Origin: Fidelibacterota bacterium | GTDB taxonomy: Bacteria > Fidelibacterota > Marinisomatia > Marinisomatales > TCS55 | Direction: 5' to 3' | Assembly: GCA_029936965.1 (NCBI GenBank) | Contig: JAPYRG010000014.1 | Coordinates: forward strand, 1-60,147 | DNA length: 60,147 bases | Notes under the pieces: generated by a model | What the model was told of the DNA's origin: nothing | Seen by the model: the letters and a program-made list of their open reading frames with translations, nothing else | Database searches by the model: none | Program-made: the position numbers and the translations under genes | In this document: piece by piece, positions 8,372 to 13,018 of the stretch | How positions within the stretch are numbered: the stretch's first letter is position 1 | Layout of the letters: every line of letters starts with the position of its first letter

Positions 8372-10642
8372 ATGATTAATAAACTGAATAGGGTTTTATT
8401 TATATATATGATTATCTCAGGGATAATCTATTCTGCTCCTATAGCAAGAATAATGAAAGCCGAGGGAGACGTATTAATAAAGCGAATGGGAAAAAACACT
8501 TTCACCGTACCAGGGAAACCTGGGTTAGCAATCAATAATGGTGATGCTATTAAAGTGGGAGAAGAAGGGTTTGCAGTAGCTATTTTTATCGATGATAAAT
8601 CCGTAGTTAAGATTAGAGAAAAAACACAATTTGCATTCATTGAGTCTGCAAGTTCTAGAACATTGGACGTTGAACAAGGAACTATATTTAATGATATAAA
8701 AAAAGAAGGGCGTACAAAAACTTTTCGCGTAGAAACACCAGTATCTGTTGCTTCCGTAAAAGGCACAGAGTTTGCTGTGGTTTCTAATCCATCAGGAGTT
8801 GATCAGGTGTTTTGCGCTACAGGTCAACTGGATGTTCAAAACCTTATTAGTGGTCAAACTGTTGTTGTCGGAGCAGGTGAAAAAGCAATATCAAATGCCA
8901 TGGGTAGTGTAATGGAATTACCCTTTTCTCCAGATGATTATCCGGCTGACCCAGAAGGTGTTCAGCCTAAAATGCCAACTAAGTCTAAACCAAAGCCTAA
9001 GAGCACTCCTAAACAGCCAAAGTCTGAGCCACAACAACAACAGGCACAAGAACAAGAACAGTCAGAACCTGAACCCGAATCAGAGCCTGAACAGCAGGAA
9101 GGACAAATGAAAAGTGATGATAGTCCTTCCCAAGCAGAGCCAAGTAAGAAATCTGCTCCTAAAAAACCATTTGGTATGGGCTTAGGTGTAGGTTCTGTTA
9201 CTATTGATGGGGTATTATATAATCAAATCGCCCTTAGGCCAGAAATTAACCTTGGTAAGCTTGGAGTTGGTCTTGATTTAGTTTTTTACATGGATAATGA
9301 AGGGAATATGAAGCAGGATGAATGGGACTTTGGTAATGACCCAAGTAAGATTTTGGATAAAATCTTGTATCTGCGTTGGGGAGCTGAATCAGACCCTTTT
9401 TGGATAAAGTTTGGTTCATTAGATAATCTTACTCTAGGATATGGTGGAATATTGAGTGGTTATTCAAATATGATGGAATTCCCTGGCGTTAGAAGAATAG
9501 GTTTGAATACTGGTGTTAATATTGCGGGTTTTGGTGGAGAATTATTCTTGTCTAATATGAAAGATTTTAGTAGAGGTGGAACTCTCCTTGGCTTAAGAGG
9601 CACGTATAAAGTTTCTAAATCTTTTCCTTTAACTATAGGAATGAATTTTATTACAGATATGAATCAATTTTCAGGATTAAAAGATATTGATGAAGATAAA
9701 TATCCTGACATTTTTGATGATTTTCCAAATGATGCAAATTATTATAATGATACGGATGGCGATGGTGTCCCTGATCCGCATCCTGGAAAAGATTCGCCTG
9801 AAGGAGGATGGGATATTGATGCAGATGGTGATAATATTTATGATCAAGATGATTCGGATTTACTTTTAAAAGGTGTTCCCTTTAGTCTTGATGATAACAA
9901 ATCATCTGTTACAGCGTATGCATTTGATATTGGGTATCCTATATTAAATGGTAAAGCGTTATCCCTAAAGGTCTATACTGAATTCAATTTTTTAAGTTTC
10001 CCTGAAGTGGGTTCGCCAGATAGTATTTTTTATCGTCCTAACTATACTGGTAATAGCTTCTCAGTTCCTGGTTTAAGAGCAAGTATATTTAACTTTATTC
10101 AATTGAGTTATGAATTTCGAATTAAAGATGGATATTTTGTTCCTCAATTCTTTGATCAATCATATGATATATCTCGAGTAGTTCCTGAATATATTGATGG
10201 AAATGCAATAATAAAGACAAAGGATATGACATTGTTTGCTGATTCATCCATGAATGTTGGTCTGATTGGTCATTTTGGTTCCATTAGCGCAGATATGTTT
10301 GGGTTTGGAAGTTTATATGGTTCATATACGAATATGACATCAGACAATGATACAGTAAATAGTTTTGTGGCTGCGTTATCATTAAATGCTGAAAGAATTC
10401 CTAAGCTAAGCGAAGCAACAGCGTATTATCAAAGAACGAATGATAGTAATCCATTTGACTTTGCGAATCCTTCGGTGAATACTATTCTCGGCTATAGGCT
10501 TGGATATGAATTAGGCAAGGGTATAAGTGTTATATGGGATTACCGACAATTTTATCGATATACTGGTGCTCTTAATGAAGATGGATCAGGTATGCTTGAA
10601 CCAGTAATTCAGACTACAGTGGAGACGTCATTTAGTTTTTAA
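8372..10642 (+). CDS. FecR-domain surface protein with calcium-binding loops, 756 aa
   Basis: A signal peptide (about residues 1-22) is followed by a FecR domain (about 25-165: GDVLIKRMGK, GDAIKVGEEGFAVAIF, VETPVSVASVKGTEFAV). A low-complexity linker rich in Pro, Gln, Glu and Lys follows (about 195-265), then a long beta-rich region that looks like an outer-membrane barrel and ends in Phe. Inside the barrel region, at about 437-500, is an Asp-rich block with DTDGDGVPD and DIDADGDNIYDQDDSD, typical of thrombospondin type 3-like calcium loops. FecR domains in large proteins usually act as periplasmic binding modules, not anti-sigma factors. Its stop overlaps the start of the next small gene (TAATG), so the genes are probably co-translated. 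Confidence 0.85.
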   Translation: MINKLNRVLFIYMIISGIIYSAPIARIMKAEGDVLIKRMGKNTFTVPGKPGLAINNGDAIKVGEEGFAVAIFIDDKSVVKIREKTQFAFIESASSRTLDVEQGTIFNDIKKEGRTKTFRVETPVSVASVKGTEFAVVSNPSGVDQVFCATGQLDVQNLISGQTVVVGAGEKAISNAMGSVMELPFSPDDYPADPEGVQPKMPTKSKPKPKSTPKQPKSEPQQQQAQEQEQSEPEPESEPEQQEGQMKSDDSPSQAEPSKKSAPKKPFGMGLGVGSVTIDGVLYNQIALRPEINLGKLGVGLDLVFYMDNEGNMKQDEWDFGNDPSKILDKILYLRWGAESDPFWIKFGSLDNLTLGYGGILSGYSNMMEFPGVRRIGLNTGVNIAGFGGELFLSNMKDFSRGGTLLGLRGTYKVSKSFPLTIGMNFITDMNQFSGLKDIDEDKYPDIFDDFPNDANYYNDTDGDGVPDPHPGKDSPEGGWDIDADGDNIYDQDDSDLLLKGVPFSLDDNKSSVTAYAFDIGYPILNGKALSLKVYTEFNFLSFPEVGSPDSIFYRPNYTGNSFSVPGLRASIFNFIQLSYEFRIKDGYFVPQFFDQSYDISRVVPEYIDGNAIIKTKDMTLFADSSMNVGLIGHFGSISADMFGFGSLYGSYTNMTSDNDTVNSFVAALSLNAERIPKLSEATAYYQRTNDSNPFDFANPSVNTILGYRLGYELGKGISVIWDYRQFYRYTGALNEDGSGMLEPVIQTTVETSFSF

Positions 10643-10785
10643 TGAAAGAAAATAATATAAAAACTGTTTATAGGTATGATTCAGGCGGAAGCGGGTTTAA
10701 AAAAGCAACCTTATTTTTATTATTTTTAGCAGGAATATTTATTTTATTTGGTTTTTATTGGATAAACTCATTTTTAGGAATATAG
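10642..10785 (+). CDS. Small single-pass membrane protein, 47 aa
   Basis: Its ATG overlaps the TAA of the FecR-domain gene by one base, an arrangement typical of coupled translation. The protein has a polar N-terminus (about 21 residues, with a DSGGSG stretch) and one strongly hydrophobic segment, TLFLLFLAGIFILFGFYWI (about 24-42). It ends two bases before the selenoprotein start. I recognise no family. The tight packing on both sides is the main evidence that it is a real gene. Confidence 0.65.
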   Translation: MKENNIKTVYRYDSGGSGFKKATLFLLFLAGIFILFGFYWINSFLGI

Positions 10786-10786
10786 T

Positions 10787-11014
10787 ATGATACTTTCTAT
10801 TGAATATTGTAACTCTTGAAATTATTTACCTAGGGCGTCCAGGATGGCCGCTGACTTATTAGATAAATTCGGTACTAACATATCAAAGCTAACTCTTATA
10901 CCCTCAAGCGGTGGTGTGTACGAAGTAATGAAAAATGATCAGATAATATTTTCAAAAAAAGAATTGAATAGATTTCCTGAACTAGACGAAATAATTACTC
11001 TTATTGAATCATAA
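10787..11014 (+). CDS. SelW-like (Rdx family) selenoprotein with in-frame UGA (Sec-11)
   Basis: The frame starts at ATG 10787 with AGGA seven bases upstream and meets TGA at 10817-10819. Reading through gives 75 residues ending in TAA at 11012. The start reads IEYCNS-U-NYLPRASRMA, so Cys-8 and the UGA (residue 11) form a C-x-x-U redox motif at the place where the Rdx family (SelW, SelT, SelH) has CxxU or CxxC. The rest also fits: a helix (MAADLLDKFG), then LTLIPSSGGVYEV, a FSKKE segment and a final FPELDEI. Rdx proteins are thioredoxin-like oxidoreductases. Weak hairpins just after the UGA (10829-10852) could serve as the bacterial SECIS. It overlaps the next gene by 11 bases. No Sec machinery gene lies in the window. 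Confidence 0.88.
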
Positions 11015-11783
11015 TCGTTTTTATCCGTTATTATTTATTTTTATTGCGCTAATAAATGCGCAAACGCCTGATATTATCCCGTTAAGTAAAAAGGTTGGCC
11101 TTACGGTTGATGCGGAGGAGAATGTATATTTTAGAATATTTAATGATATTGATGGTTTCTATAGCGCGCAATTTTATGATGTTGGAAAAAATAAGATTAT
11201 TGTTCAAATAGTATTTGTTGATTTTAGTCAAAAAAGCGTAAGAAGAAGGTCAATGAGTACAAAGGAATTTATTGATCTTAAACATCATGTTGATGCACAG
11301 CCATTTATTACCGATAATGATAGACAAGCGATTAGAGAAAATTTAACTTATCTAACTACAATAAGCATTATAGAATCAATTCCACGCGATCAGTTTATTG
11401 TTATCGAACACCGTACTGGAAAGAAAGTCCGAGGATCTGTTCTTGGAATTGAGGATCGACTGATTTTAATTCAGACTCCTATATCTGTTGAAACTATACC
11501 CATATGGGACATGGCGAGTCTTACTTATAGAAAAGAAATACGTGAAATTCCAAAGATTAAGGGATTTTTATATGCAGTTTCTGCTTTAGGCGGTGTAATT
11601 TTAGCTGAAATTTGGAATGAACAAACTAGACCAAGAATAGATTTAATATGGCATTTTCGATTCATAGGTACCGTTTTAGGAGCGTTGTTTGGAGCAGAAA
11701 CTTATCAAGCTGTAAATATAATTTCATCTCCAACAACATTTTTTGCATTAACTCCAGAAGAAATGGATAAATTAAAGAACTAA
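11004..11783 (+). CDS. Exported protein of unknown function, 259 aa (TTG start)
   Basis: The gene begins with TTG at 11004, inside the end of the selenoprotein gene. No ATG in the frame would keep the signal peptide (FYPLLFIFIALINAQ). The middle holds a short barrel-like stretch, VIEHRTGKKVRGSVLGIEDR, that resembles an Sm/SH3-type beta-strand pair ('G-x-V-x-G-x-x-D'). The C-terminal part has one or two hydrophobic segments (about 190-205 and 222-240). The overlap suggests co-expression with the selenoprotein. Family not recognised. Confidence 0.75.
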   Translation: MNHNRFYPLLFIFIALINAQTPDIIPLSKKVGLTVDAEENVYFRIFNDIDGFYSAQFYDVGKNKIIVQIVFVDFSQKSVRRRSMSTKEFIDLKHHVDAQPFITDNDRQAIRENLTYLTTISIIESIPRDQFIVIEHRTGKKVRGSVLGIEDRLILIQTPISVETIPIWDMASLTYRKEIREIPKIKGFLYAVSALGGVILAEIWNEQTRPRIDLIWHFRFIGTVLGALFGAETYQAVNIISSPTTFFALTPEEMDKLKN

Positions 11784-12747: not shown

Positions 12748-13018
12748 GGTCGTGCTAGATGGAGAGTTAGCGGTGCTCTGTAACCTGCAATCCGCTATAG
12801 CAGGGTTTAAGTCCATAGAGCGGCTTAATCCACATTAAATGTATAAAGTACGAAGCGTTGATATTTCAGCCCATCTCAATAAAATATCATTGAAACCCGT
12901 CAGATCCGGAAGGGAGCAGCGGTAGATGAATTATTTTGTGTGCTGATGGATAACTAAAATTGAGCTTACGGCTTTCATATGTTTTATGATGAATTATGTC
13001 AATCTATGGTGCACGACC
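12748..13018 (+). ncRNA. ffs: Large bacterial SRP RNA (4.5S/6S type, with Alu domain)
   Basis: The ends pair perfectly: GGTCGTGC (12748-12755) with GCACGACC (13011-13018). The S-domain apical hairpin is unmistakable at about 12898-12925 (GTCAGATCCGGAAGGGAGCA), where Ffh protein binds. The 5' part (GGAGAGTTAGCGGTGCTCTG, then TGTAACCTGCAATCCGCT) is the Alu domain of the long SRP RNA form, about 270 nt. A possible -10 box TATAGT is at 12729-12734. The RNA lies directly upstream of dnaX, an arrangement also known in several Gram-positive bacteria. It targets signal-bearing ribosomes to the membrane. Confidence 0.95.

Follow-up and report, generated by a model that had tools for sequence, protein, structure and literature searches.

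A predicted SelW-like (Rdx) selenoprotein gene with a SECIS-type hairpin in Candidatus Neomarinimicrobiota (SAR406)

The window analyzed here, a DNA stretch of 60,147 nucleotides from a 2.14 Mb, 96.7% complete genome, contains a small gene interrupted by an in-frame TGA, which raises the question of whether this gene is broken or encodes a selenoprotein. The TGA had been placed at 10817–10819 in a preliminary description of the sequence, and these coordinates are exact; the same description expected gene callers to miss or truncate the gene, and translation of the frame with table 11 does leave only a 56-aa fragment that starts at the internal ATG 10844. Positions 10787–11014 almost certainly represent a SelW-like Rdx selenoprotein gene of Candidatus Neomarinimicrobiota (SAR406), in which UGA 10817 would be decoded as selenocysteine (Sec) via SelB, tRNA-Sec, and a hairpin (Table 1). 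In the predicted mechanism, the ribosome would pass UGA 10817 without stopping, SelB bound to both Sec-tRNA(Sec) and the hairpin at 10835–10851 would insert selenocysteine, and the product would adopt a thioredoxin fold and carry its redox pair in C-N-S-U. At the level of sequence, this reading is carried by the protein family, the conserved UGA, the full decoding machinery, the covarying hairpin, and purifying selection past the UGA; insertion of selenium in the cell would be expected by analogy with the family. An apparently broken small gene from an abundant uncultured ocean lineage is thereby a predicted working selenoprotein gene, which standard translation truncates.

Table 1. Features of the selW-like locus (window positions) and the selD gene of the same genome
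Feature	Position	Strand	Description
FecR-domain protein with a long C-terminal region, 756 aa	8372–10642	+	Pfam FecR, 39.9 bits; adjoins SelW in 45/50 order copies
47-aa protein with one hydrophobic stretch, YRYDxGGxGFxKA start	10642–10785	+	homolog just upstream of SelW in 34/50 copies
Probable ribosome-binding site AGGA	10776–10779	+	7 nt upstream of ATG 10787; inference from sequence
selW-like (Rdx) selenoprotein gene (predicted)	10787–11014	+	ATG 10787, stop TAA 11012–11014; 75 aa, Sec at residue 11
Sec codon UGA (predicted)	10817–10819	+	second redox position of CxxU (C8-N-S-U11)
SECIS-type hairpin	10835–10851	+	loop AGGAU 10841–10845, starting 21 nt after UGA
Exported or membrane protein	11004–11783	+	TTG start 11004; downstream neighbor in 45/50 copies
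selD	L056:3589–4638	-	UGA at residue 17

With TGA read as U, the frame yields a product that runs from MILSIEYCNSU to ITLIES and contains the peptide ELNRFPELDEIITLIES on the C-terminal side of the UGA. The preliminary description had recognized YCNSU at the place of the Rdx motif and a family pattern (PSSGGVYEV, FPELDEI) continuing to the TAA, and the read-through product indeed scores far over the cut-off of the Pfam family Rdx (PF10262; 81.3 bits vs. 22.6, E 5.7e-23). The cut-offs of two NCBIfam models, CXXU_selWTH (TIGR02174; 60.7 bits vs. 34.2) and SelTWH_Campy (NF041051; 97.2 bits vs. 88), are likewise exceeded. Over the 60 codons past the UGA, dN/dS against genus relatives is approximately 0.05–0.12. 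This low ratio, the E-value of the Rdx match, and the retention of the TGA in all 50 order-level copies described below argue that the frame is not due to chance. In the AlphaFold model of the product, for which Sec was replaced by Cys (pLDDT 96.8; TM 0.93 to 2fa8), the C8-N-S-U11 motif comes after strand 2–8 of a thioredoxin-like fold. By analogy with the family, SelW may be a small cytosolic thiol/selenol oxidoreductase that would form a Cys-Sec bond.

Compared with the bacterial CxxU SelW-like family (PF10262, TIGR02174, and NF041051), the window protein has the same length, N-terminal CxxU, GGVYEV and FP motifs, fold, and predicted UGA decoding, and thus shows no substantial difference; what is particular to it is the SAR406 host phylum and the gene neighborhood. 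The CxxC Rdx structures from Agrobacterium (2fa8), Streptomyces (3dex), and Vibrio (2p0g) match the model with TM 0.91–0.94 at about 29–37% identity, and the first Cys is common to all of them. Cysteine at the UGA position had been predicted for CxxC homologs, and in the two printed phmmer alignments 3dex and 2fa8 do have Cys in that column, whereas the window gene has UGA. Mouse SelW (2npb) shares the family and the fold with a weaker fold match (TM 0.69). Mammalian SelW has a CxxU redox motif, as does the window protein. The eukaryotic SECIS is located in the 3' UTR, as it is for mammalian SelW, whereas the hairpin of the window follows the UGA directly, within the coding frame. The Campylobacter jejuni SelW (CJnc60), from another phylum, is likened here through the NCBIfam model SelTWH_Campy, which fits the window protein, and through its published description: it has about 80 aa and a UGA-encoded Sec, was missed by annotation, and its full-length translation by read-through is documented by Ribo-seq and mass spectrometry/proteomics (PMC11955535). 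The SelW-like CxxU family of bacterial selenoproteins has long been described (PMC1794560), and in the 2008 Global Ocean Sampling (GOS) data it ranked first in abundance among prokaryotic selenoprotein families, with 427 Sec vs. 56 Cys forms (PMC2398784). The SAR406 SelW is a well-supported new gene in this known, common marine family.

A Sec system had been implied by the preliminary description, which named an absence of Sec genes from the genome as grounds against its reading; our search for selA, selB, selD, and tRNA-Sec recovered the full set in the same genome as selW. The selA gene (493 bits) is located immediately before selB (330 bits), selD was found with 390 bits, and the tRNA-Sec has the anticodon TCA (UCA). 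The selD gene has a UGA of its own in the motif GSGUACKIG. A hairpin CCCAG-GTT-CTGGG, seen by eye 33 nt past this UGA, is kept in other genomes, takes the form CTCAG-GTT-CTGAG in L054, and is probably the SECIS of selD. Profile searches of the genome gave no match for AhpD/CMD (PF02627) and, in a search that had no working control, none for PrdB/GrdB (PF07355).

Rdx matches occur in 48 of the 61 genomes of the order and comprise 50 copies, each with exactly one TGA. These order-level copies were inspected by eye, and all 50, read individually, encode CxxU, the TGA always occupying the same codon; close relatives with a different stop, or with neither Cys nor Sec at this position, which had been put forward as evidence to the contrary, are not among them. 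Copies beyond the order were counted by profile search, which gave Rdx matches in 144 of 245 phylum genomes; among the matches listed, all that cover the motif have one TGA, and none has the Cys form of SelW. The phylum matches without TGA start at profile position 16 or later and therefore exclude the motif, and the two of them that were inspected (in genomes G134 and G151) are both partial. Across these listed matches, the SelW site in the SAR406 phylum is uniformly Sec and not Cys. Among named records, the nearest are metagenome-assembled genomes of Candidatus Neomarinimicrobiota / Marinimicrobia (SAR406), with up to 99% identity over the protein. The partial match in G134 (L102, G134:C39, near 116522) is the C-terminal half of a second SelW copy located about 3 kb from the intact one, and G135 has Rdx matches in the same arrangement.

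Two genomes of the order-level comparison, G050 and G060 (about 1 Mb, 96–98% complete), have no Rdx, SelA, SelB, SelD, or tRNA-Sec above cut-off, and the Sec trait in this lineage is lost as a block. In a further genome, G042, SelA, SelB, and tRNA-Sec are present while SelD and SelW were not detected, which reflects either a loss in progress or an assembly gap.

The preliminary description had called for a bacterial SECIS element after the UGA, and a hairpin with compensatory changes was found at the expected distance. In the window, the core stem pairs 10837–10840 with 10846–10849 and includes one U-C mismatch (10838 x 10848), and the extension adds the pairs 10836–10850 and 10835–10851, giving a total of five pairs and one mismatch. 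The U-C mismatch at the second pair is found in the window's own genus; the order-wide form is N-G-C-C / AGUNU loop / G-G-C-N', starting from 20 nt after the first base of the UGA. The published bSECIS criteria comprise a stem of at least 4 bp, a loop of 3–9 nt, a G in the first two loop positions, a distance of 16–37 nt from the UGA, and an energy of at most -7.5 kcal/mol (PMC13188914). The hairpin shares this geometry, with a spacing of 21 nt, a G at loop position two, and a four-pair core across the order. Its local energy in the window, -7.2 kcal/mol, is a borderline miss of the -7.5 cut-off (PMC13188914), a value reached by 27 of the 50 copies in a 26-nt segment; over 52 nt the energy is -8.2 kcal/mol. 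The single-sequence fold (-7.2 kcal/mol in a 25–26 nt segment) is not above shuffles, RNAalifold recovers only three pairs, and no Rfam family matches the hairpin.

The decisive test was of covariation in an explicit four-pair hairpin. In its outer pair, the third base of one Ala codon meets that of another, and both positions are synonymous and free of protein constraint; this pair is nonetheless formed in 46 of 49 distinct sequences, by way of GC, AU, CG, UA, GU, and UG, and no other tested column pair has a mutual information as high. When the hairpin columns are left out of the tree, at least 24 changes are required for this pair, a count that is indicative because the tree is derived from a very short gene. 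Across the core pairs, 94.9% of cells are paired vs. 79.7% after shuffling, with double changes in three of the four pairs, and synonymous-codon shuffling gave 163 +/- 3.1 paired cells (maximum 175 in 2000 shuffles) vs. 190 observed.

Two other explanations of the TGA were weighed against these data. Were it a nonsense mutation or an assembly error, the locus would be a pseudogene, or the 56-aa downstream ORF alone would be made; translation with table 11 stops at the TGA, and an ORF with an internal ATG does exist. However, an identical TGA is found in 50 copies from 48 genomes, the frame is conserved on both sides of it, the dN/dS downstream of it is far below 1, and the 56-aa product would have neither the CxxU motif nor the first strand, so that this explanation is refuted by the agreement of the 50 copies and retains only a very small probability. 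Smaller still is the probability that the genome has reassigned TGA to sense (Trp or Gly), to which nothing points beyond the in-frame TGA itself. Of the 53 window ORFs that reach 100 aa, 17 end in TGA, which therefore is not reassigned genome-wide; in addition, the genome has a dedicated tRNA-Sec(UCA) together with selA, selB, and selD, and in both SelW and SelD the TGA falls on a Sec/Cys redox position. Genome-wide reassignment is refuted by this stop-codon use.

The predicted SelW selenoprotein gene is tightly packed, as the preliminary description had claimed: it begins one base after the 47-aa ORF, and the next ORF overlaps it by 11 bases. In 45 of the 50 order copies SelW lies between the genes for the FecR-domain protein and the exported protein, and in the other five it is located elsewhere; further downstream in the window are p162, p132, the SRP RNA, and dnaX. 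The large bacterial SRP RNA (12750–13016; Rfam RF01854, 162.5 bits) occupies an otherwise empty gap upstream of dnaX (13064). The exported protein has no Pfam match; its structural model (pLDDT 84.7) shows a barrel of the LSm/SH3 type and a pair of long C-terminal helices, and its Foldseek matches are weak and mostly to LSm/Hfq. This neighborhood suggests a functional link of SelW with the flanking genes, makes an envelope-related SelW substrate possible, and gives a starting point for working out what bacterial SelW does physiologically.

A redox role near the envelope had been offered as a guess, and the part of it that stands is the conservation of the FecR and exported neighbors across the order. 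As a refinement of the selenoprotein reading, and not an alternative to it, SelW could have its specific role in the envelope, as part of one redox module with the FecR-domain and exported proteins, which we regard as rather unlikely. It is favored by these recurrent flanking genes, by the small hydrophobic protein that often accompanies them, and by the tight gene spacing in the window. However, SelW begins with the first strand of its fold and is probably cytosolic, because there is no room for a signal peptide; in G042 (L105, G042:C164:11184–13460) the order FecR-exported-p162-p132 is kept with no SelW between; five SelW copies are located elsewhere; and shared transcription is no proof of shared function. 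A more specific version, in which SAR406 SelW constitutes a conserved module with the FecR-domain, 47-aa membrane, and LSm-like exported proteins and acts as a cytosolic selenol switch that reports or repairs the envelope redox state, is less likely again. Such a module, if true, would give bacterial SelW a defined physiological partner.

The hairpin covariation, the phylum-uniform Sec, and the neighborhood were not found in the literature searched, the coverage of which is incomplete. In an earlier survey, three SAR406 single-cell genomes were listed with orphan SelD (table 1 in PMC5029168). The whole Sec pathway is present in nearly complete SAR406 genomes, and therefore the orphan SelD of that survey may reflect the incompleteness of the single-cell genomes.

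The genome that encodes selW contains at least three further selenoprotein candidates. A peroxiredoxin (L093, G000:C2:64440–64823; AhpC-TSA, 124 bits) has one in-frame TGA in STPGUTIEG (TxxU). Two thioredoxin-like proteins that are related to each other and begin like lipoproteins have an in-frame TGA in a UxxC motif, namely in WFAGWUNSC (L100, G000:C6:5610–5888) and in WFASYUGLC (L101, G000:C44:50881–51213).
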